From Arcobacter sp. (GTDB lineage: Bacteria > Campylobacterota > Campylobacteria > Campylobacterales > Arcobacteraceae), in assembly GCA_002869565.1 (NCBI GenBank), contig PKUJ01000027.1:318801-382800 (forward strand): 64,000 bases of DNA, in the 5' to 3' direction. Below, piece after piece: positions 44,111-56,350 of the stretch. Position 1 is the first letter of the stretch; each line of letters begins with the position of its first letter. Under the pieces are notes generated by a model. That model searched no databases and was not told the origin of the DNA. It saw nothing but the letters and a program-made list of their open reading frames with translations. The position numbers were made by a program, and so were the translations under genes.

Positions 44111-45004
44111 ATGGAGTATATTATTAAATCAAATTCAAATGCGTATAAATATGCTTTAATATCAGTTTTTTTATGGTCTACTGTTGCTACTGCTTTTAAA
44201 TATTCTCTTAAATATTTAAGTCCAGAAGAGTTAGTCTTATATTCATCTATTAGTTCTCTTTTAGTACTTTTTATAGTATTAGTTATAGAAAAAAAGTTGA
44301 ATTTGGTTTTAACTCATATAAAAAATAATTCTGTACTTATCTTAATTTTAGGTGCAATTAATCCTTTTTTATATTACCTAGTTTTATTTAGAGCTTACGA
44401 TTTACTACCAGCACAAGAAGCACAAGCTATCAACTATACGTGGGCTTTAATGTTAGCTTTTCTTTCTGTACCTTTACTTAAGCAGAAGCTAACTCTCTCA
44501 GATATAGTTGCGGGAATAGTTTGTTATTTCGGAGTTTTGATTATATCAACAAAAGGTGATCCTTTTGGATTGAATTTTTCTAATTTAGAAGGTGTTAGTT
44601 TTGCATTAATTAGTACAATTCTTTGGGCTTTATATTGGATATTTAATACAAAATCAAAAAGTGACCCTGTTGTAGGACTTTTTTGTAACTTTTTATTTGC
44701 ATTGCCTTTAATCCTTACTTACTATTTGTTAACTCAAGATATAGTAGTACCTAAAACAAATGGTCTTCTAGGTGCAATATATGTGGGCTTATTTGAAATG
44801 GGTATTACTTTTCTTTTTTGGCTAAAAGCTATGCAGAGTTCTGAAAATACATCTAAAATTGCAAATTTAATATTTATTTCACCATTTCTATCTTTAATAT
44901 TCATTTATTTTATAATTGGTGAAAAAATATATATGTCAACTTTATTTGGTCTTCTTGCAATTATTATAGGCTTATTTATACAACAATATAAAAGTTCTAA
45001 ATAA
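44111..45004 (+). CDS. EamA/DMT-family transporter
   Basis: 297 residues with about ten membrane segments in two EamA repeats (YALISVFLWSTVATAFKYSLKYLSPEELVLYS at the start, IGEKIYMSTLFGLLAIIIGLFIQQ at the end). A metabolite transporter of unknown substrate. It is clearly different from the EamA protein at 24348. It is divergent from the stress protein gene and followed by a 202-bp gap. Confidence 0.85.
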   Translation: MEYIIKSNSNAYKYALISVFLWSTVATAFKYSLKYLSPEELVLYSSISSLLVLFIVLVIEKKLNLVLTHIKNNSVLILILGAINPFLYYLVLFRAYDLLPAQEAQAINYTWALMLAFLSVPLLKQKLTLSDIVAGIVCYFGVLIISTKGDPFGLNFSNLEGVSFALISTILWALYWIFNTKSKSDPVVGLFCNFLFALPLILTYYLLTQDIVVPKTNGLLGAIYVGLFEMGITFLFWLKAMQSSENTSKIANLIFISPFLSLIFIYFIIGEKIYMSTLFGLLAIIIGLFIQQYKSSK

Positions 45005-45149
45005 TATACAACTTATCTACTTGGGATTAGATAAATAGCATCAAAATAGCATTTTTTATAAAATACTCTTTTTTAATCGAAATAGGCTAATTTTTATACA
45101 AATTTTAGCTAAAATTTAAGTTTCAGTTAAGTTTTAGTGTGCAAGAATC

Positions 45150-45160: not shown

Positions 45161-45187
45161 TTTAGTACTACTTTAAGTACTACTAAA
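45161..45187. promoter_or_regulatory. 27-bp palindromic operator candidate before the ribbon-helix-helix gene
   Basis: Around the central base 45174, twelve of thirteen symmetric base pairs match (TTTAGTA...TACTAAA outer arms and ACTTTAAGT core). It also contains AGTACTACT twice as direct repeats 12 bases apart (45164 and 45176). It covers the predicted transcription start. Direct repeats with dyad symmetry at this place are typical of operators bound by ribbon-helix-helix autorepressors. Confidence 0.6.
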
Positions 45188-45206: not shown

Positions 45207-45434
45207 ATGGCTAAACAAAAAAATTCTAGAACAGTTATTAAAAATGTTATTAGTAAACATACGAAAAAATATAAAAAAGAGATTTCCCAAGTTACTATCA
45301 AAATTGATAAAAAACTTGATAATGCTCTTATTATTCTTTCTTCTCAACTAAACATTTCAAAAAACAGACTTATTGAAGATATACTTAATGAAAGCGGTAT
45401 ATTAGAAGAAGTTGATGAAAACTATATAGGATAA
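45207..45434 (+). CDS. Small ribbon-helix-helix (CopG-like) DNA-binding protein
   Basis: 75 residues. A very basic N-terminus (residues 1-27) leads to a strand ISQVTIKIDKKL, then helices LDNALIILSSQLNI and SKNRLIEDILNES, the ribbon-helix-helix layout, and an acidic tail. It should bind DNA as a dimer. A strong AGGAAAAG ribosome site precedes the ATG. Its own promoter carries a near-perfect palindrome, so autoregulation is likely. It is followed four bases later by a gene of unknown function. Confidence 0.75.
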   Translation: MAKQKNSRTVIKNVISKHTKKYKKEISQVTIKIDKKLDNALIILSSQLNISKNRLIEDILNESGILEEVDENYIG

Positions 45435-45438
45435 TAAT

Positions 45439-46098
45439 ATGAACAAATTTCCTAATCAAGAAGATATTGTAAATGCAGTTTTAAAAGGTATTAGAACTGC
45501 CAAAGCAAATTATTCAAACTGGACATCAGATGAATTATATCTTTCTTATGCACCACCAAAATTTTTAACTATTCATGTTTCTCAAGAAATTGCAAAGTTA
45601 GATAATGCACCTGAAATTTTTATTGATGCAACAATTGCGGATATATTAAGATGCTCATTACCTAAAAGAGATGCATTTAGAGATTTTATGAAACAGAAGT
45701 ATTTAGCTCAAGATGTAATGTGTTTAACATTAGATGAGAGATTTGAGCATAAGACAGATAACGATTCTGTTTCAAAAGTTGTAATGAGTATAAAAAATGG
45801 TGTTAGAAATGTACAAGAAGAGTATAAAATTGAAGTAGAAAAAATGTGTAAAATGATTGAAAGAGATAAAAAAGAGGATTCAACTCTTGATTATGGTCTT
45901 TTTGCATTTTATTTAGATATTTCTAATTCTGCAAGAAAAAAATCACAAAAAAGATTAGATGAAATAATAGAGTCTTTTGACAAGATTGTATTAAATCATA
46001 AAAATCTAAAATCTAGTTTTAAAAGGGGGAATATACAAGTTATTGAAAACATCGGTGAATGGTGTGTGGGTTGTTATATTATAGAACCTACATTTTAA
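45439..46098 (+). CDS. Unknown 219-aa protein paired with a ribbon-helix-helix gene
   Basis: Not recognised. A soluble protein without signal peptide. The N-terminal part (NYSNWTSDELYLSYAPPKFLTIHVSQEIAKL) is followed by a mixed middle, a long charged helical region (about 110-190) and a C-terminal IGEWCVGCYIIEP with a CxxC-like pair. The four-base gap to the ribbon-helix-helix gene shows co-translation. It is followed 37 bp later by livJ/K without a visible terminator, so it may belong to the same transcript as the amino-acid transporter. Confidence 0.75.
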   Translation: MNKFPNQEDIVNAVLKGIRTAKANYSNWTSDELYLSYAPPKFLTIHVSQEIAKLDNAPEIFIDATIADILRCSLPKRDAFRDFMKQKYLAQDVMCLTLDERFEHKTDNDSVSKVVMSIKNGVRNVQEEYKIEVEKMCKMIERDKKEDSTLDYGLFAFYLDISNSARKKSQKRLDEIIESFDKIVLNHKNLKSSFKRGNIQVIENIGEWCVGCYIIEPTF

Positions 46099-46135: not shown

Positions 46136-47260
46136 ATGAAATTAACAAAAATTGTAAGTGCTTTAGCACTAAGTACAGTAGTTGCTGCATCTTTGTATGC
46201 TGCAGATACAGTTAAAATAGGTGTACAAGCACCAATTACAGGAAAATACGCAAATGAGGGACAAAGTATTGATAACTTTGTAAAACTTATTGTTGATGAA
46301 AAAAATGCAGAAGGTGGTCTTTTAGGTAAACAAATTGAAGTTGTAACTTGTGATGATGAAGCAAAAGCTCAAAAAGCTGCGGTTTGTGCTAAAAAACTAG
46401 TAAATGCTGGTGTATTTGCTGTAATCGGTTCTTATACTTCTGGTGCAACTGAAGCTGCTCAAACTACTTATTATAGAAAAAAAGTTTTACAAACTTCTGA
46501 TGGTACTTCTGATTCTTTAATTGGAAAAAAATACTGGACTTTCTTTAGAAATTCATTCCCTAATTCATCACAAAGTGATTTTACAGCTGAATATATGATT
46601 AAAACTAAAAAATACAAAAATATTGTAGTTCTTTCTGATTATTCTTCATATTCAGCAGGTCTTGGGGATGCAACTGAAGCTTCAGTTAAAGCTCTTGGCG
46701 GAAATGTTGTATTTAGAGGAAAAGTTAAAGCTGGTACTCAAAACTTTACAGCAATGCTTACAAAAGTTAAAGCAATGAATCCTGATGTTATTTACTACTC
46801 TGGTTACTATACAGATGGTGGGTTAATTAGAGCTCAACAAAAACAATTACAAATTAATGCTGACTTTATTGGTGGAGATTCAAATGATAACCCTGATTTC
46901 TATAAATTAGCAGGTGCAGCAGCAGAAGGTACAGTTTTAATTAACTTCCCAACTCCTGAAATTTTACCTTATCCAGAAGCTAAAAAATATTTGGCAGCAT
47001 ATAAAGCAAGATTTAAAATGGATCCTCCATCAATCTGGCCTGTTACTAATGCAGATGGTTTAAGAGCAGTTATTGAAGGTGTTGAAAAAACAAATTCTTT
47101 TGATACTAAAAAAATCTCTGATTATATTAGAAATACAATGAAGGATTTTGCAGGAATTACTGGACCATTTAATATTAGAGAAGATGGAGAAAGAGTTGGT
47201 GCTAAATTTGTTGTTTATAAAATGGCAAATGATGGTACAAAAAAAGTAGTTAGTGAATAA
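46136..47260 (+). CDS. livK: Branched-chain amino-acid ABC transporter substrate-binding protein
   Basis: 374 residues with a signal peptide (ending LYAAD near 23). KIGVQAPITGKYANEGQSI, VVTCDDEAKAQKAAVCAKKLV and the later VIYYSGYYTDGGLI segment are typical of type I periplasmic binding proteins of the Leu/Ile/Val type; the disulfide Cys pair near residues 79-90 is kept. It delivers amino acids to LivHMGF encoded next. Substrate range (branched-chain or broader) is unknown. The strong GGGAAA ribosome site suggests high expression. Confidence 0.9.
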   Translation: MKLTKIVSALALSTVVAASLYAADTVKIGVQAPITGKYANEGQSIDNFVKLIVDEKNAEGGLLGKQIEVVTCDDEAKAQKAAVCAKKLVNAGVFAVIGSYTSGATEAAQTTYYRKKVLQTSDGTSDSLIGKKYWTFFRNSFPNSSQSDFTAEYMIKTKKYKNIVVLSDYSSYSAGLGDATEASVKALGGNVVFRGKVKAGTQNFTAMLTKVKAMNPDVIYYSGYYTDGGLIRAQQKQLQINADFIGGDSNDNPDFYKLAGAAAEGTVLINFPTPEILPYPEAKKYLAAYKARFKMDPPSIWPVTNADGLRAVIEGVEKTNSFDTKKISDYIRNTMKDFAGITGPFNIREDGERVGAKFVVYKMANDGTKKVVSE

Positions 47261-47275
47261 TAAGGCAAAAAAATA

Positions 47276-48178
47276 ATGGATACTTTACTTCAACAGTTAA
47301 TAAATGGATTAACAGTAGGAAGTCTGTATGCATTAGTAGCTTTAGGATATACAATGGTTTACGGTGTGATGAAGTTAATTAACTTCGCACACGGTGACCT
47401 TGTTGCCTTTTCTGCTTATGTGGGACTGACTATTTTTACACAGTTTTATGGTTCGAATGCATTGTCTTTAGTGAATATTGTAATAGTATTTTCTCTAACT
47501 GCAATAGTTGTTGCTTTTATAGGTGTTCTTCTTGAGCGTCTAGCATATAGACCTTTAAGAACGGCACCAAGATTAAGTGCTGTAGTTTCAGCTTTAGGAG
47601 CTTCTTTAGTAATTCAAAATGGAATTATGCTAATTTGGGGTCCAAATATGGAAATTTTTCCAGCTGATGTTTTTCCTAGTACATCTTGGAATTTTGGTGG
47701 AGTGATTATTTCATTTACACAATTGATAATTTTAGCATTATCAGCAATTTTAATGGTTTCTCTCTATATATTCATTAATAAAACAAAAATGGGTACTGCA
47801 ATTAGAGCAACAGCCATAGATCAAGATGCTGCTAAGTTAATGGGTATTAATGTTAATAGAATCATTATGATTATTTTTATCGTGGGTTCTATGCTTGGTG
47901 CAATTGGTGGATTATTTATTGGTATTTATTATAGAGGACTAACATTTGATATGGGTTGGCTTTATGGTTTAAATGCATTTATTGCTGCAATTATTGGTGG
48001 TATTGGTTCAATTCCGGGAGCGATGCTTGGTGGATTATTACTTGGATTATTTAATGCTTTAATTTCAGGATATATTTCAACTACTTGGGCTGAGACATTT
48101 ACATTTATATTATTAATTATAATTTTAATTGTAAAACCTACTGGAATTCTTGGTGAAAAAACGGCGGAGAAAGTATAA
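47276..48178 (+). CDS. livH: Branched-chain amino-acid ABC transporter permease LivH
   Basis: 300 residues, polytopic. QLINGLTVGSLYALVALGYTMVYGVMKLINFAHGDL at the N-terminus and AIGGLFIGIYYRGLTFDMGWLYGLNAFIAAIIGGIGSIPGAMLGG near the C-terminus are the standard LivH motifs. It forms half of the membrane channel and overlaps livM by one base. Confidence 0.93.
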   Translation: MDTLLQQLINGLTVGSLYALVALGYTMVYGVMKLINFAHGDLVAFSAYVGLTIFTQFYGSNALSLVNIVIVFSLTAIVVAFIGVLLERLAYRPLRTAPRLSAVVSALGASLVIQNGIMLIWGPNMEIFPADVFPSTSWNFGGVIISFTQLIILALSAILMVSLYIFINKTKMGTAIRATAIDQDAAKLMGINVNRIIMIIFIVGSMLGAIGGLFIGIYYRGLTFDMGWLYGLNAFIAAIIGGIGSIPGAMLGGLLLGLFNALISGYISTTWAETFTFILLIIILIVKPTGILGEKTAEKV

Positions 48179-49134
48179 TGAATAAAACTACAATTATAGC
48201 TACACTTTTTATTGTGTTTATGGCACTTTTCCCGTTTATTGTTGATTCTGCTTGGTTAAGTATTGGAATTACATTTTTAGTTTTTGCAGTGGTTGCATTT
48301 TCTCAAGATATTATCTTAGGACGTGCAGGAATTTTTAATATGGGGCATGCGATATTCTTTGGAATGGGAGCTTACACAACTGCAATCTTAAATGTACATT
48401 TTGGTTTTGAAATTATTGCAACAATTCCATTTGCAATTATTATTCCTGTAATTTTTTCAATATTACTTGCAGGTCCAATTATCCATTTAAAAGGAGACTA
48501 TTTATTAGTTGCGACTATTGGATTTAATATTATTTTTGAACAAGTTTTATCAAATGATGTATTTGGTTTAACTGGTGGTCCTAATGGTATTTTTGGAATT
48601 GATGTGTTTAGAATTTTTGGTTATGAACTATTTTCTGATACTTCAATTTATTATCTAGCATATGCTTTATTAGTTGTTACATTACTAATTATTAGAAATT
48701 TAGATACTTCAGCATATGGAAGAGCTTTATATTACATTCATAAAGATGAAATAGCAGCTAAATCTATGGGAATTAATGTTTCTTATTACAAACTATTTGC
48801 ATTTGCACTTGGTGCTGCAATTGCTGGTGCGGCAGGTTCAGTTTTTGCTATTCAGTATTCAGCTGTATCTCCTGAGTCATTTAACTTTATGCAGTCAGTT
48901 ATGTTCTTTGCTATTGTACTTGTTGGTGGTTCAGCGTCATTACCAGGTATTATTATTGGTACTTTTGTAATGTTTGTATTACCAGAACTGTTTACAGAAT
49001 TTAAAGAATCAAGATATTTAATTTTTGGTGCTGCAATGGTATTAACAATGATCTTAAGACCAAATGGCGTTTGGCCCGCGAAATTTGGAAATATCCCAAA
49101 ATTTCTTAAAAAGAAAGCAAGGGAGGCAAAATAA
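48178..49134 (+). CDS. livM: Branched-chain amino-acid ABC transporter permease LivM
   Basis: 318 residues, polytopic. DIILGRAGIFNMGHAIFFGMGAYTTAIL, then GRALYYIHKDEIAAKSMGINVSYYKLFAFALGAAIAGAAG with the ATPase-contact EAA loop, and VLVGGSASLPGIIIG are typical of LivM. It pairs with LivH. It overlaps both neighbouring genes by one base. Confidence 0.93.
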   Translation: MNKTTIIATLFIVFMALFPFIVDSAWLSIGITFLVFAVVAFSQDIILGRAGIFNMGHAIFFGMGAYTTAILNVHFGFEIIATIPFAIIIPVIFSILLAGPIIHLKGDYLLVATIGFNIIFEQVLSNDVFGLTGGPNGIFGIDVFRIFGYELFSDTSIYYLAYALLVVTLLIIRNLDTSAYGRALYYIHKDEIAAKSMGINVSYYKLFAFALGAAIAGAAGSVFAIQYSAVSPESFNFMQSVMFFAIVLVGGSASLPGIIIGTFVMFVLPELFTEFKESRYLIFGAAMVLTMILRPNGVWPAKFGNIPKFLKKKAREAK

Positions 49135-49913
49135 TGGAATATGTATTAGAAATTGAAAATGTTTCAAAATTTTTCCATGGTTTAGTTGCAATTGATGATT
49201 TAACTATAAAAGTTAAACCAGGTCAAATATATGGAATTATTGGTCCAAATGGTGCAGGTAAAACTACACTATTTAACTGTGTAACTGGCATTTATACTCC
49301 TGAAAAAGGGACAATTAAATATAAAGGTGAAAAAATTACAGGTATGGAACCTCATAAAATTGCTCAAAGAGGAGTTTTAAGAACTTTTCAAAATATTCGT
49401 CTTTTTAAAGAGATGAGTGTTGCTGAAAATATTATTGCTGGTTGTCATACAAAGTCAGAACAAAAATGGTATCACTCAATTATTCATACTCCAGCATATA
49501 GAAGAGATGAAAAGAAACATTGGGAAAAAGTTGGCGAACTTATGGACTTTTTTGGATTAACTAAATATGCTAAAACTCCAGCAGGAGATTTATCATATGG
49601 GAATCAAAGAAAAATTGAAATGGCAAGAGCTCTTGCAGCTGATCCTGAAATTTTAATTTTAGATGAACCTGCTGCTGGATTAAATGAAAATGAGACAATT
49701 GAGTTAACAAATATCATTTTAAAAATTAAAGAGATGGGTCTTGGAATCATGATGATTGAGCATGATATGGATATGGTTATGAAATTAACTGATTACATTA
49801 CAGTTATTAATTTTGGAAAAGAGATTTCTCAAGGGCTTCCTGCTTTTGTACAAGGTGATCCAAAAGTTATTGAAGCTTATATTGGAACAGATGATGATGA
49901 GGAGGATGAGTAA
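49134..49913 (+). CDS. livG: Branched-chain amino-acid ABC transporter ATPase LivG
   Basis: 259 residues. Walker A GPNGAGKTT near residue 37, the family-specific RTFQNIRLFKEMSVAENI, signature LSYGNQRKIEMARAL, Walker B ILILDEPAAGLNENE and the histidine in IEHDMDMVM. LivG is the longer of the two ATPases. It ends in an acidic tail (DDDEEDE) and overlaps livF by one base. Confidence 0.93.
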   Translation: MEYVLEIENVSKFFHGLVAIDDLTIKVKPGQIYGIIGPNGAGKTTLFNCVTGIYTPEKGTIKYKGEKITGMEPHKIAQRGVLRTFQNIRLFKEMSVAENIIAGCHTKSEQKWYHSIIHTPAYRRDEKKHWEKVGELMDFFGLTKYAKTPAGDLSYGNQRKIEMARALAADPEILILDEPAAGLNENETIELTNIILKIKEMGLGIMMIEHDMDMVMKLTDYITVINFGKEISQGLPAFVQGDPKVIEAYIGTDDDEEDE

Positions 49914-50635
49914 TGGTAAATAATGAAATATTATTAGATATAAAAGACCTTCAAGTATCTTATGGAGCAATTGAAGCAATTAAAGGCATCTCTTTGCACG
50001 TTAAAAAAGGAGAAGTTGTTACAATTTTAGGTGCAAATGGTGCTGGAAAAACAACAACTTTACAAACAATTTCTGGACTTTTAAAACCAAAGTCTGGACA
50101 TATTATTTTTGATAAAAATGATATTACAAAATGTGAAGCGCACGATATTGTAAGTCTAGGTATGTCTCATTCTCCTGAAGGAAGAAGAGTTTTTGGAATC
50201 TTAACGGTTGAAGAAAACTTAATGATGGGTGCTTATACTTTAAAAGATCACGATAAAGAGACTTTAGAATGGATTTATGACATTCTTCCAAGACTTAAAG
50301 AAAGACGAAAGCAACTTGCAGGAACACTTTCAGGTGGTGAGCAACAAATGCTTGCAATTGGTAGGGCAATTATGTCAAAACCTAAACTGCTAATTTTAGA
50401 TGAACCATCATTAGGATTAGCTCCTATTTTAATAAAAGCTATTTTTAAAGCTGTAAAAGAGATTGCACAAAGTGGTGTAACTGTTTTATTAGTAGAACAA
50501 AATGCTAAAGCTGCATTAAAATTAGCTGATAGAGCATATGTTCTTGAAGTAGGGAAAATTACCCATGAAGGGACAGCTGAAGAGTTATTAAATTCTGAAA
50601 CTATTCAAGAAGCATATTTGGGTAAAAAACATTAA
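49913..50635 (+). CDS. livF: Branched-chain amino-acid ABC transporter ATPase LivF
   Basis: 240 residues. Walker A GANGAGKTT near residue 42, SHSPEGRRVFGILTVEENL, signature LSGGEQQMLAIGRA, Walker B LLILDEPSLGLAPI and LLVEQNAKAAL, all LivF-type. It is the last gene of the liv group and is followed by a large hairpin. Confidence 0.93.
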   Translation: MVNNEILLDIKDLQVSYGAIEAIKGISLHVKKGEVVTILGANGAGKTTTLQTISGLLKPKSGHIIFDKNDITKCEAHDIVSLGMSHSPEGRRVFGILTVEENLMMGAYTLKDHDKETLEWIYDILPRLKERRKQLAGTLSGGEQQMLAIGRAIMSKPKLLILDEPSLGLAPILIKAIFKAVKEIAQSGVTVLLVEQNAKAALKLADRAYVLEVGKITHEGTAEELLNSETIQEAYLGKKH

Positions 50636-50727
50636 TATGAGACATAAACGTAGATTACAATCAAAAGTACAAGATTTACATAAAGGCCAGGAAAATCCTT
50701 AATTAAAGTAGCAAGATTGCGATACTT

Positions 50728-50763
50728 AGTAGTTAAGCACATTTAAAAATGTGATTAACTACT
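50728..50763 (+). terminator. Hairpin after livF, probable terminator
   Basis: AGTAGTTAA-G-CACATT (50728-50743 region) pairs with AATGTG-A-TTAACTACT (50748-50763), a stem of about 15 bp with one G-A mismatch and a loop TAAA. A moderately T-rich tail follows. It lies 42 bp before putA and separates it from the liv genes. A leader-type regulatory hairpin is an alternative. Confidence 0.6.
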
Positions 50764-50804
50764 TAAATTAATTTAAAAAAACAATAAATTTTTAAGGACA
50801 ATAA

Positions 50805-53800
50805 ATGAAAAATGAAACAAAAATTATAAACTCAGCTGTAGAACTAGCAGAAAAATGGCAAAATAGAGCAACACAGCTTGTAAGTGATTTTGATAGAGAA
50901 TTCTATGTAAAAATGAATAAGATGTTAGATCATCCAAAGGATAAAGCTCTTTTAATAGAGTTAATGGACCAATGTTTTAGATGTGAAACAAATGCAAGAG
51001 TTGCAGATCAAATAATTTTCTTATTAGAGAAACATGGGATGGCTCACTTTTTTACAACTAAAGATAAAACACTTTTATGGTTATTCCAAAATTTTGGAAA
51101 GTTTTTACCAAATTTATCTGTTCCTATGTTTGTAAATCAAATAAGAGAAGACACAAAAACAGTGGTTATTAAAGGAGAAGAAGAGCCTTTTAATAAACAC
51201 TTAGTTATGAGAAAAGAAGAGGGTACGAGGGTTAATATTAACCTTATTGGGGAAGTAGTACTTGGTGAAGAAGAAGCAAGTGAAAGAATGGAAAAATATC
51301 TTAAAGCTTTAACTAATCCAAATATTGATTATATTTATATTAAGATATCAACTATTTATTCTCAAATTAATCCATTAAATTTTGAACATACAGTTCAAGT
51401 ACTTGTTGAAAAATTAACTAAAATTTATGAACAAGCACAAAAATTCCCATATATTGCTCCGGATGGAACAAAATCAAATAAATTTATTAACCTTGATATG
51501 GAAGAATACAGAGACTTAGCTATTACTGTTGAAGTATTCAAAAGAACATTAGATAAACCACAATTTAAAGATTTTTACGCAGGTATTGTTTTACAAGCTT
51601 ATGTCCCAGATTCATTTTTAGTACAAAAAGATTTATTAGCTTGGTCTAAAAATAGAGTAGATAATGGTGGCTCTCCAATCAAGTTTAGACTTGTAAAAGG
51701 TGCTAATATGGAGATGGAAGAGACTGAAGCTAGTCAAAAACATTGGGAAATGGTAACTTATACAGATAAATCAGATACAGATTCAAATTATAAAAGAATG
51801 GCAAGACATGCCCTTGATCCTGAAAATGCTAAATACATGCATATAGGAACTGCTTCTCACAACTTATTCGAACTAGCATATGCAACAACTTTAGCACAAG
51901 AGAATGGTACTATTGAATACCATACTTTAGAGATGCTAGAAGGTATGAGTGAAGCTGCTAGACTAGCTATTAAAGAGATTTCAAAATCTGTAATTTTATA
52001 TGCACCAACTGCTACAAAAGAGCAATTTACAAATGCAATAGCATACTTAGTAAGAAGACTTGATGAAAATACAGGTCCAGATAACTTTATTAGATACTCT
52101 TTTGGATTAACTGTTGGTTCAAAAGATTGGAATATGCAGAAAGAGTTATTTTTAAAATCTTTTGAAAATGAAAAAACTTCATTTGTAGGTGCAAAAAGAA
52201 CTCAAAATAGACTTACAGAAAAATGGGATGATTTTTCACATACATCATATGACACAAAAGAGTACCATGCAGAAGCAGATACAGATTTTATTTTACCAGC
52301 GAATCAAGAGTGGGCAAAAAACATTATCAAAAAATGGAAGTTTTCAAAAGATACTGAACATAAAATCACTCCAATTGTTGTTGGTGGTGAAGAGATTGTT
52401 GAAGATAGAAAAGTTGTTGAAGCTATTGATAAATGTCAAATTAAAGAAGGTGTATTAGCTGGTAAATTTGCAAATGCAAATGCTGAAGACCTTAAAAGAG
52501 CTGTTGAAGTAGCAAAGGCTGATGTTGATGGTTGGAGAAGTTTAACACATGAACAAAGACATTCTGCACTTAAACATGTTAGTAATAAATTAAAAGAAAG
52601 AAGAGATGACCTAATAGGTGTTGCTGCTGCTGAAGTTGGTAAAGTATTTACTGAAACTGATGTTGAAGTTTCTGAAGCAGTTGACTTTGTAGAGTTTTAT
52701 CCATATAGTGCAAACTATTTTGATAAATATGAAAATATAGAGTTCTCTGGTAAAGGTGTAGGTGTAGTTGTACCACCATGGAATTTCCCTGTTGCTATTC
52801 CATTAGGTGGAGTTGCTGCTTCCTTAGCTGCTGGTAATACAGTAATTATCAAACCTGCATCAGTTGCTGCTTTAACTGCATATGAGATGTGTAAATGTTT
52901 CTGGGATGCTGGTATTTCTAAAAATGTACTTCAATTTGTTCCTTGTCCAGGGGCACTTGCAGGTGAGCATTTAATTGCAAACAAAGATGTGGATTTTGTA
53001 ATTTTAACTGGTGGAGAAGATACAGCTGCAAGTATGTTAAAAACAAGACCAGATTTAATGTTAACAGCAGAAACTGGTGGAAAAGATGCAACTATTGTTA
53101 CAAATATGGCAGATAGAGAACAAGCAGTTAAAAATGTATGTTTAAGTGCATTTAATAACTCTGGTCAAAAATGTTCTGCTACTTCACTTTTAGTTTTAGA
53201 AGAAGAAGTTTATAATGATGAATCATTTAAAAAAGCTTTGGTTGATACTGCTCGTTCTATGAGTGTTGGTTCTATTTGGGATTTCAAAAATAGAATTGGT
53301 ACTTTAGCAAATCCTGTGTCTGGAAATCTTAAAAAAGCAATCTCTGAATTAGAAGGTAATGAAGAGTGGTTATTAGCTCCTGAATATGCAGAAGATAATA
53401 AATATATGTTAAAACCTGCAATAAAATGGGGAGTAAGTGAAGGAAACTTCATTCATATGAACGAACTTTTTGGACCAGTACTTGCCGTTGTAAAAGCAAA
53501 AGATTTAGCTCATGCAGTTAAAATTGTAAATGATACAGGATATGGATTAACTTCTGGTATTGAATCTCTTGATGAAAGAGAAGTAACATACTGGAAAGAA
53601 AACCTTAAAGCTGGAAATCTTTATGTAAATAGAGGAACAACTGGGGCAATTGTTCTTAGACAACCATTTGGTGGAATGGGTAAATCTGCAATTGGTGCAG
53701 GTAGAAAAGTTGGTATCTTTAATTATATTACTCAATTTGTTAATTTTACTGAAAAATCGGCACCTGTTTCTAAAAAAATATATAATACAGAATTAACACA

Positions 53801-54377
53801 ATTAATTTCTGGATCAAAATTTAATTCATTAAATAAAGAAGATTTTGAAAAACTTGAATTAGCACTTCAATCTTATTATGAAAATTATGAGAATGAGTTT
53901 AGTGTGGCAAAAGATTATTGTGAAGTTAGAGGAGAAGATAATCACTTTAGATATCTTCCTTTAAAAAATGTATTAATTAGAGTTTCTTCTGATGATACAC
54001 TTTTTGAAGCTGTATCTAGAGTTCTTGCTGCAAAAATTTCTAATGTTAGTTTTAAAGTTTCGATTTCTGAGAATACTGCTGTTAAATCATTTTTAGAAAA
54101 AAATAAAAACATTTTATTTTCATTAGAAGATTCACTTGTGGAAGAAAAAGATGATGAATTTGTTAAACATATAGCTTCTTTTGATAGAGTTATTTATTCA
54201 AATATTTCAAAAGTACCTTCTCATGTTTTTGATAAAGCTTCAGAATCTTTAACTTTTATTGTTAGACAAGCTCCTATGATGGAAGGAAGATTAGAACTTC
54301 TAAACTACTTTATTGAGCAATCAATTTCTCACTCATATCACAGATATGGAAATATTGGCGCAAGAGGACTAAAATAA
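50805..54377 (+). CDS. putA: Bifunctional proline dehydrogenase / glutamate-semialdehyde dehydrogenase PutA
   Basis: 1190 residues. The N-terminal part (about 100-470) is the FAD-dependent proline dehydrogenase barrel (NINLIGEVVLGEEEA, DMEEYRDLAITVEVFKRTL, VKGANMEMEETEAS, GTASHNLFELAYA). The middle (about 540-1000) is the aldehyde dehydrogenase with PPWNFPVAIPLGG, the Glu in LTAETGGKDA, the catalytic Cys in NNSGQKCSATS and QPFGGMGKSAIG. There is no N-terminal ribbon-helix-helix domain, so it is not an autorepressor of the E. coli kind. The enzyme oxidises proline to glutamate at the inner membrane. Downstream is a GltB-like gene of glutamate metabolism. Confidence 0.93.
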   Translation: MKNETKIINSAVELAEKWQNRATQLVSDFDREFYVKMNKMLDHPKDKALLIELMDQCFRCETNARVADQIIFLLEKHGMAHFFTTKDKTLLWLFQNFGKFLPNLSVPMFVNQIREDTKTVVIKGEEEPFNKHLVMRKEEGTRVNINLIGEVVLGEEEASERMEKYLKALTNPNIDYIYIKISTIYSQINPLNFEHTVQVLVEKLTKIYEQAQKFPYIAPDGTKSNKFINLDMEEYRDLAITVEVFKRTLDKPQFKDFYAGIVLQAYVPDSFLVQKDLLAWSKNRVDNGGSPIKFRLVKGANMEMEETEASQKHWEMVTYTDKSDTDSNYKRMARHALDPENAKYMHIGTASHNLFELAYATTLAQENGTIEYHTLEMLEGMSEAARLAIKEISKSVILYAPTATKEQFTNAIAYLVRRLDENTGPDNFIRYSFGLTVGSKDWNMQKELFLKSFENEKTSFVGAKRTQNRLTEKWDDFSHTSYDTKEYHAEADTDFILPANQEWAKNIIKKWKFSKDTEHKITPIVVGGEEIVEDRKVVEAIDKCQIKEGVLAGKFANANAEDLKRAVEVAKADVDGWRSLTHEQRHSALKHVSNKLKERRDDLIGVAAAEVGKVFTETDVEVSEAVDFVEFYPYSANYFDKYENIEFSGKGVGVVVPPWNFPVAIPLGGVAASLAAGNTVIIKPASVAALTAYEMCKCFWDAGISKNVLQFVPCPGALAGEHLIANKDVDFVILTGGEDTAASMLKTRPDLMLTAETGGKDATIVTNMADREQAVKNVCLSAFNNSGQKCSATSLLVLEEEVYNDESFKKALVDTARSMSVGSIWDFKNRIGTLANPVSGNLKKAISELEGNEEWLLAPEYAEDNKYMLKPAIKWGVSEGNFIHMNELFGPVLAVVKAKDLAHAVKIVNDTGYGLTSGIESLDEREVTYWKENLKAGNLYVNRGTTGAIVLRQPFGGMGKSAIGAGRKVGIFNYITQFVNFTEKSAPVSKKIYNTELTQLISGSKFNSLNKEDFEKLELALQSYYENYENEFSVAKDYCEVRGEDNHFRYLPLKNVLIRVSSDDTLFEAVSRVLAAKISNVSFKVSISENTAVKSFLEKNKNILFSLEDSLVEEKDDEFVKHIASFDRVIYSNISKVPSHVFDKASESLTFIVRQAPMMEGRLELLNYFIEQSISHSYHRYGNIGARGLK

Positions 54378-54646: not shown

Positions 54647-56350
54647 ATGGAAACATGGTTTGTTATATTAGTGGCTTTTGGTGTGAGTATATTTATGTGG
54701 TATGTACATGATAAATATGTACAAAGGCAACATCAAATTTTGGTAAATTATCCAATTATTGGACGACTTAGATTTGTATTTCAAGAATTTAGAGAGCCTT
54801 TTAGACAATATTTTGGTGATGAAAAATTTTATGAATCAATGGATAAATTAGATTGGGTTTATAATGCATCAAGAGATAAAGTGAATTATGCTTCTTTTTC
54901 ACCATCTCAGCCCTTACCTAAACCAAAACTTATGTTAAAACATACAAATTTTGTATTAAATGATGATGAAGTTGATAATGATTTCTCTATTATTTTTGGT
55001 GAGAATAGAAGAAGCCCTTTTATTTCAAATTCTATAATAGGACGGGGACCTATGAGTGATGGTTCTATTTCTCCCGAAGGAACAAGAGCTTTTGTATATG
55101 GTGCTAAAGATGGAAACTTTCCAATTAATTCAGGTGAAGGTGGATTAACATCAAACTTTTTTGTAACTCATAATAACTATGATACTAGATATATGAAAGA
55201 AGTTAGAGGAACTGCTTTTCAAGAAAAAGTATTTAAATTATCTAAATTTCTATTCAATGTTCCTGTTGCTATTGATTTTTATAGAAAAGTGGTTTTTAGA
55301 AAAGATTTAGAAGCTGACACTTATGTTTATAATAAAGAAAAAGACTGTTTTTATAGACCTAATTGGGATGCACCTCTTGAGTATTTTCCAAATGAGGTTC
55401 CTAACGATATGGCTGACATAATTTTACAAATTAGTTCAGGTCTATATGGTGTTAGAACAAAAGCTGGAAAATTTGATATTGAACGTTATAAAAAACAGAT
55501 GAGCTTTTGTCGAATGACTGAAATTAAAATTGCACAAGGAGCTAAACAAACTGGTGGAAAATTGATTGCTGAGAAAGTTACTCCTTCAATTGCTTATTAT
55601 AGAAATATAGAGGCAAATAAAGATGCCTTTTCACCTAATAGATTTCCTTATGCAACTTCAAATGAAGAACTATTTGATTTTATTGGAGAGTTGCAAGAAG
55701 CTTCGGGTAAGCCTGTTGGTATAAAAATTGTTATCTCTGATTATGATAACATTGTTCCTATGGCAAAAGAGATAAAAAGAAGAGTTGCTTTAAATTTACC
55801 TTTCCCTGATTATATCTCTCTTGATGGAGGAAGTGGTGGTAGTGCTACAGCTCCATTGGATATGATGGAAAGAATTGGTATGGACATTAGGGATGCTATA
55901 TACTTAGTAGATAAAGTACTTAAAGAATATGGTGTTAGAGAATATGTAAAAATTTCTGCAAGTGGTAAGGTTCTTACTCCTGATGATGTAGTAATTACTC
56001 TTTGTATTGGTGCTGACTTTGTTCAAATTGCACGTGGATTTATGATGAGTGCAGGGTGTATACGGGCAAGATATTGTTCTGGAGCAGGAAAGCATCAATG
56101 TCCAGTTGGACTAGCCACACAAGATATTAAAAAAAGAAAACACTATTTTGTTAAAAAACACTCAGATTACGTAAAAAATTATCACAATAATATTTTAAAA
56201 AGTATGAAAAGTTTATTAGCAGTAATGGGATTAAAAAATATAAAAGAGTTAGATAAAGATAAATTAATCTTTTTAGATAAAAATTCGATTATACATGATG
56301 ATATTGAAAGTGTATTTGAAAGAAGAGTTTTTAATAAAAAAGAGATTTAA
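54647..56350 (+). CDS. Membrane-anchored GltB-like FMN-binding glutamate synthase family protein
   Basis: 567 residues. One N-terminal membrane segment ([17 protein letters not shown]) is followed by the FMN/Fe-S synthase domain of glutamate synthase: [56 protein letters not shown] and the cysteine cluster [24 protein letters not shown] (3Fe-4S type). The glutaminase domain and the rest of GltB are absent, as in archaeal-type or stand-alone members. It may make or oxidise glutamate with another electron donor, or do a different FMN reaction. Placement after putA links it to proline-glutamate flow. Confidence 0.85.

Follow-up and report, generated by a model that had tools for sequence, protein, structure and literature searches.

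What is a pair of small genes doing directly in front of an amino-acid transport operon? In the window (the whole stretch of 64,000 nucleotides from Arcobacter sp. analysed here), two reading frames with a gap of four bases encode proteins of 75 aa (45207–45434, + strand) and 219 aa (45439–46098, + strand), just as originally predicted. They are followed by livKHMGF-type amino-acid ABC transporter genes (46136–50635, + strand; livK starts at 46136) and by putA (50805–54377, + strand), which encodes a bifunctional proline dehydrogenase/P5C dehydrogenase without a ribbon-helix-helix (RHH) domain and is probably part of the same regulon. The layout had been taken to recall either an antitoxin-toxin pair or a regulator of amino-acid uptake.

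The gene pair and its genomic setting

The first protein proves to be of the RHH type, as had been proposed. Pfam RHH_1 matches 8 out of 21 orthologues (best 9e-5), with the copy in the window itself below detection, and there is a match to a phage Arc-like repressor (3e-4). The predicted monomer has helices at residues 35–48 and 52–63, preceded by a strand region that it leaves unformed; this strand, the two helices, and the RHH_1-like sequence place the protein in the RHH family. A PDB sequence search with the RHH profile found no relatives.

Between 46098 and 46136 we find nothing terminator-like on the + strand, in agreement with the original prediction, and the liv genes are therefore probably cotranscribed with the pair. 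Directly after the pair comes livK in 37 out of 49 loci, usually with putA beyond, and in these the gap from the 219-aa gene to livK is 17–223 bp. The distance between the RHH and 219-aa reading frames ranges from −20 to +4 bp in all 49 loci (mostly an overlap of 8 bases or 1 base), and this overlapping or abutting arrangement suggests translational coupling. On the other side of the pair, many relatives share with the window a directly adjacent EamA-family permease gene (44111–45004), which may be part of one physiological unit with the pair.

Among 60 genomes, including the window's own, the RHH gene (located by profile) and the liv/putA-type 219-aa gene occur in the same 20 and never one without the other (P = 2e-16, Fisher); weak matches to the 219-aa profile in two genomes (G053 and G058) belong to an orphan branch described below, not to the liv/putA type. 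The sole genome of the 60 with two copies of the 219-aa gene, G020, also has two RHH copies. Judged by this comparative evidence, the pair is a genuine unit. A survey of 399 genomes of the order finds the 219-aa family in 54, which come mainly from two families, one of them the window's, and named relatives come from Arcobacter, Halarcobacter, Poseidonibacter, and other Campylobacterota records.

The pair also goes together with putA, which is present at full length in 20 out of 20 pair-bearing genomes versus 4 out of 40 others (P = 2.5e-12, Fisher). Among the four putA-bearing genomes without the pair, G007 has a contig end inside livK, exactly where the pair would be, and in G032 putA is partial; in G019 and G038 the pair is absent and we found no operator nearby. 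Where the pair is not followed by livK, its neighbors are of the same kind: it lies divergent to putA and convergent with liv (L041–L045), directly 5′ of putA with liv absent (L040, L060, and L062), or 5′ of another amino-acid ABC transporter plus putA (L051 and L068). The second copy in G020 (L034:6368-11880; 58% identity for the RHH protein and 54% for the 219-aa protein) has its own operator variant and precedes DDAH-like, ornithine cyclodeaminase, and arginase genes. A gene with a glutamate-synthase domain, which comes after putA in the window (54647–56350), is found again beside this copy.

For all copies with readable surroundings (the target of L066 excluded), the position of the pair is fixed at liv/putA loci, apart from the one second copy at the arginine/ornithine cluster. 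This is not the mobile, patchy placement expected of a type II toxin-antitoxin module, and the antitoxin-toxin reading finds no support in this survey, given the fixed position and the strict co-occurrence with putA.

The tandem operator and the predicted regulon

The operator-like palindrome noted at 45161–45187 resolves into a tandem AGTACTACT-TTA-AGTACTACT, two 9-bp palindromes at 45164–45184 (no strand assigned) with a 12-bp spacing. Its general form, AGTANTACT-NNN-AGTANTACT, occurs upstream of nearly every RHH gene, usually 14–32 bp 5′ of the start codon and behind a conserved −10-like block, with weak versions in some copies (L032, L042–L045, and L056). In the window, the putative −10-like block (TGTGCAAGAAT; 45138–45148, + strand) is part of a conserved promoter stretch 5′ of the operator. 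The proposal that the pair has its own promoter holds in part: The conserved TGTGAAATAAT-type block argues for one, whereas a simple sigma-70 scan found none there. Similar TGTGAAATAAT-like blocks with the same spacing precede orthologous pairs and the agcS operator in the window's genome.

The strict form of the operator has only two matches in the window's 3.49-Mb genome. It is present in 16 out of 17 pair-bearing genomes versus 0 out of 24 pair-less genomes (P = 1.6e-10, Fisher), and in 26 out of 38 further pair-bearing genomes versus a single match for the reversed-pattern control. Conserved in both position and sequence, the operator is the presumed binding site of the RHH protein.

When putA and liv are split from the pair, the operator is found at their own starts. 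At L041–L045 it lies 30–37 bp 5′ of putA and 54–71 bp 5′ of livK; at L040 and L060 it lies 25 bp 5′ of putA, with another 5′ of an SBP_bac_3 transporter gene; and it precedes putA in 10 out of 10 further genomes. In G018 it stands 5′ of a gene for D-amino-acid dehydrogenase, which belongs to a hydroxyproline cluster together with genes for 4-hydroxyproline epimerase and delta1-pyrroline-2-carboxylate reductase. The other strict match in the window's genome lies 5′ of the gene for an AgcS sodium:alanine symporter and has the same promoter-like block. A site with one mismatch about 160 bp 5′ of a dctP TRAP gene is a less certain target, and two further sites in this genome, one with one mismatch and one with two, lie inside long ORFs of the chemotaxis-receptor type. 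We rejected a wider regulon at two mismatches, since the counts equaled those of the reversed-pattern control and most sites were inside genes.

The presence of the operator before putA and livK when these are apart from the pair, together with the hydroxyproline cluster and agcS, suggests that the RHH protein regulates a proline-family regulon. On this comparison of upstream regions, the protein is very probably a repressor of a small set of such genes, whose predicted membership through the shared operator is well supported. The suggestion that the pair may regulate amino-acid uptake is thus strongly borne out, and the predicted control extends beyond liv to putA, hydroxyproline genes, and other amino-acid genes.

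Between livF and putA, we also observe a conserved structured RNA in about nine genomes of the window's family (50703–50767 in the window; relatives at L030:14203-14285, L036:14166-14247, L102:4684-4761, L104:14205-14285, and L172:4087-4167). It forms a three-way junction with stem P1 AAGTAGC/GCTACTT and loop ACTTGGCGG, and the copies fold alike despite different stem sequences; RNAalifold, run on a rough alignment, recovers the structure only in part, and a search of six loci against Rfam gave no match. In the window the middle hairpin has been lost, yet the RNA folds strongly (z = −4.8). The RNA is seen only where putA is without its own AGTANTACT operator, and may control putA as a candidate riboswitch or attenuator.

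Predicted fold and lost motif of the 219-aa protein

The 219-aa protein had been described as of no known family. Direct searches agree, with no convincing family in Pfam, NCBIfam, PHROG, or PADLOC and no PDB sequence relatives of its profile, but it can be tied to Tin-type PD-(D/E)XK proteins through a distant branch of homologues. Its AlphaFold2 model is confident (pLDDT 91.3, pTM 0.90) and alpha/beta, with the core order alpha-beta-(alpha alpha)-beta-beta-alpha-beta plus a C-terminal extension. Matches to solved structures are weak: The best is the restriction-endonuclease-like 3ijm (Z = 7.0), and a bunyavirus cap-snatching endonuclease, 4ic1 (Z = 5.9), and NucC (Z = 5.1) also appear, mixed with unrelated folds. 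These similarities of a predicted model to PD-(D/E)XK folds would not stand alone, and since they are weak, the link rests more on sequence homology. A viral structure library gave no informative match for the model. Similarity of residues 110–219 to Alba/IF3-C/SpoVS was rejected as not specific, and a HEPN/AbiV identity was set aside because the hits are weak and scattered over few members and the predicted fold is alpha/beta, not the all-helical fold of HEPN.

The homology comes from the orphan branch, genes of ~205 aa in Campylobacterota that lie outside liv/putA loci. Each of the 12 orphans has GR(S/F/A)D(I/V)...P(R/L)(A/G)(I/V)IEVK, a PD-(D/E)XK signature that maps onto predicted beta2 and beta3, and the 219-aa family aligns with them over 168 columns (hhalign E = 8.8e-16). 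The fold core and the homology to motif-bearing members place the 219-aa protein in the PD-(D/E)XK superfamily. However, the catalytic D...(D/E)xK is kept in 0 out of 59 liv/putA-linked proteins versus 12 out of 12 orphans: E is replaced by S, T, C, A, F, or D; K is variable; and D is not conserved. The one equivocal case, L068, is nearest to an intact motif, with D-I-K in place of ExK. The liv/putA-linked proteins also have seven residues inserted between beta2 and beta3, beside a near-invariant LDER...H...DS, and the inserted loop has the conserved sequence LDERFxH..DNDS. Invariant polar residues are H46, Q49, E50, D99, H104, and D109; we identified no ligand pocket. By comparison with the orphans, this pseudo-nuclease has kept a predicted PD-(D/E)XK-like fold and lost the nuclease residues of the catalytic triad, and is presumably catalytically dead.

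The orphans match PADLOC Tin (E = 4e-8 to 6.5e-11), and phage P2 Tin matches the orphans (E = 1.9e-4), with GRxDI...IEVK common to both. This similarity is restricted to the orphan branch: The Tin profile finds 0 out of 23 liv/putA-linked proteins at E ≤ 1, which by direct match places them outside the Tin family, and the window's 219-aa protein compared directly with P2 Tin gives E = 0.13. The P2 tin gene (L231:2685-3446) itself encodes GRIDIAIL...IEVK, a PD-(D/E)XK signature, which suggests that P2 Tin is a nuclease-fold protein.

The orphan genes (L090:9153-9773, L094:1477-2097, L096:8102-8716, L097:8870-9487, and loci L179, L180, L181, and L183) sit in Campylobacterota islands, some beside HTH, ADP-ribosylglycohydrolase, or FtsK-gamma genes. 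We found no phage or IMG/VR relatives of the branch, and a PDB sequence search with the orphans returned chance-level rows only. It is possible that these ~205-aa Tin-type proteins are anti-phage nucleases.

Proposed function and comparison with known systems

We regard it as reasonably likely that the pair is dedicated to regulating how proline and related amino acids are taken up and catabolized, with the 219-aa protein as a domesticated Tin-like partner. RHH dimers would occupy the two AGTANTACT boxes, which lie directly 3′ of the −10 region, and so block their own operon (RHH-219-liv, often then putA) as well as genes elsewhere that carry this operator (putA, livK, a polar-amino-acid ABC transporter, hydroxyproline genes, and agcS). 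It is the position of the operator behind the −10-like block that argues for repression as the direction of control. The 219-aa protein, always made with the RHH protein, would most plausibly bind it and modulate how far the operator is occupied, much like the toxin of an autoregulated toxin-antitoxin module. The 219-aa protein is best read as an obligate co-regulator of the RHH repressor or as its ligand sensor, most likely a co-repressor or anti-repressor that would sense an amino acid or derivative; the nature of the regulated genes points to a proline-, hydroxyproline-, or ornithine-type amino acid as the presumed signal. More tentatively, and with somewhat less than even odds, a defence-type nuclease of the Tin branch may have been domesticated in Campylobacterota into a dead amino-acid sensor gating an RHH repressor, a two-protein counterpart of PutA-RHH built from unrelated parts.

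Alternatively, the RHH protein might regulate alone, with the 219-aa protein serving the pathway otherwise, for example by binding PutA or the transporter or by serving as a scaffold for either. It is common for RHH proteins to work without a partner, the RHH-219 complex is itself our supposition, and the conserved loop of the 219-aa protein could bind any partner; we nevertheless consider this rather unlikely, given the strict co-occurrence and tight coupling of the two genes and a second copy of the pair (L034) away from liv and putA. We think it very improbable that the 219-aa protein still cuts or otherwise acts on DNA through a rearranged active site, and that the locus is an anti-phage element lodged within an amino-acid operon. 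The homology of the protein to Tin-like PD-(D/E)XK proteins and its invariant polar residues would fit such a role, but the absence of the motif from all 59 proteins, the metabolic neighbors, and the operator targets speak against it. A type II toxin-antitoxin module, with an autoregulating RHH antitoxin and the 219-aa protein as putative toxin, deserves hardly any credence: Layout, autoregulatory operator, and kinship with a defence-like nuclease branch are countered by fixed amino-acid loci, operators at metabolic genes, and a lost nuclease motif.

We found no description of the RHH/219 pair in the open-access literature searched. The ingredients are of known kinds; their combination appears to be new, and is new to us. 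If the preferred reading, a dedicated proline-family regulator, is correct, Campylobacterota have such a regulator, for which we found no earlier description in the literature searched, with a precise operator and targets that lend themselves to testing, and the 219-aa protein clearly exemplifies how the fold of an anti-phage nuclease can lose catalysis and turn into a metabolic regulator. As a by-product, phage P2 Tin is predicted to be a PD-(D/E)XK protein.

The closest functional parallel is the trifunctional (type C) PutA of E. coli and Salmonella, in which an RHH domain fused to PutA represses putA and putP and controls proline uptake autogenously (PMC5293562). Here, too, an RHH unit would control putA and proline uptake, but it has a gene of its own, which forms a pair with the 219-aa gene, and the system has a tandem AGTANTACT operator as well as targets beyond these. 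A domain search of the window's PutA (~1190 aa) finds Pro_dh and Aldedh only, so that it is not an RHH-PutA fusion and the separate RHH unit would be a functional analogue in another arrangement. PruR of Pseudomonas is likewise a dedicated putA regulator encoded beside putA, but it is an AraC/XylS-family activator (PMC5879082) unrelated to either protein of the pair. With RHH type II antitoxin operons (CopG/Arc-like), the pair shares a small basic RHH gene in first place, an autoregulatory operator, and an overlapping second gene, but differs in its fixed metabolic location and in operators at separate amino-acid genes. With the PD-(D/E)XK superfamily (HSDR_N, Mrr, Cas4, and NucC), the 219-aa protein shares the core order alpha-beta-beta-beta-alpha-beta, whereas the liv/putA-linked branch is without the catalytic D...ExK. 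From the P2 Tin/PADLOC Tin family, to which its orphan homologues are tied by profile match and shared GRxDI...IEVK, the window's protein is set apart by the missing Tin match and motif, by its inserted loop, and by its place in a metabolic operon.
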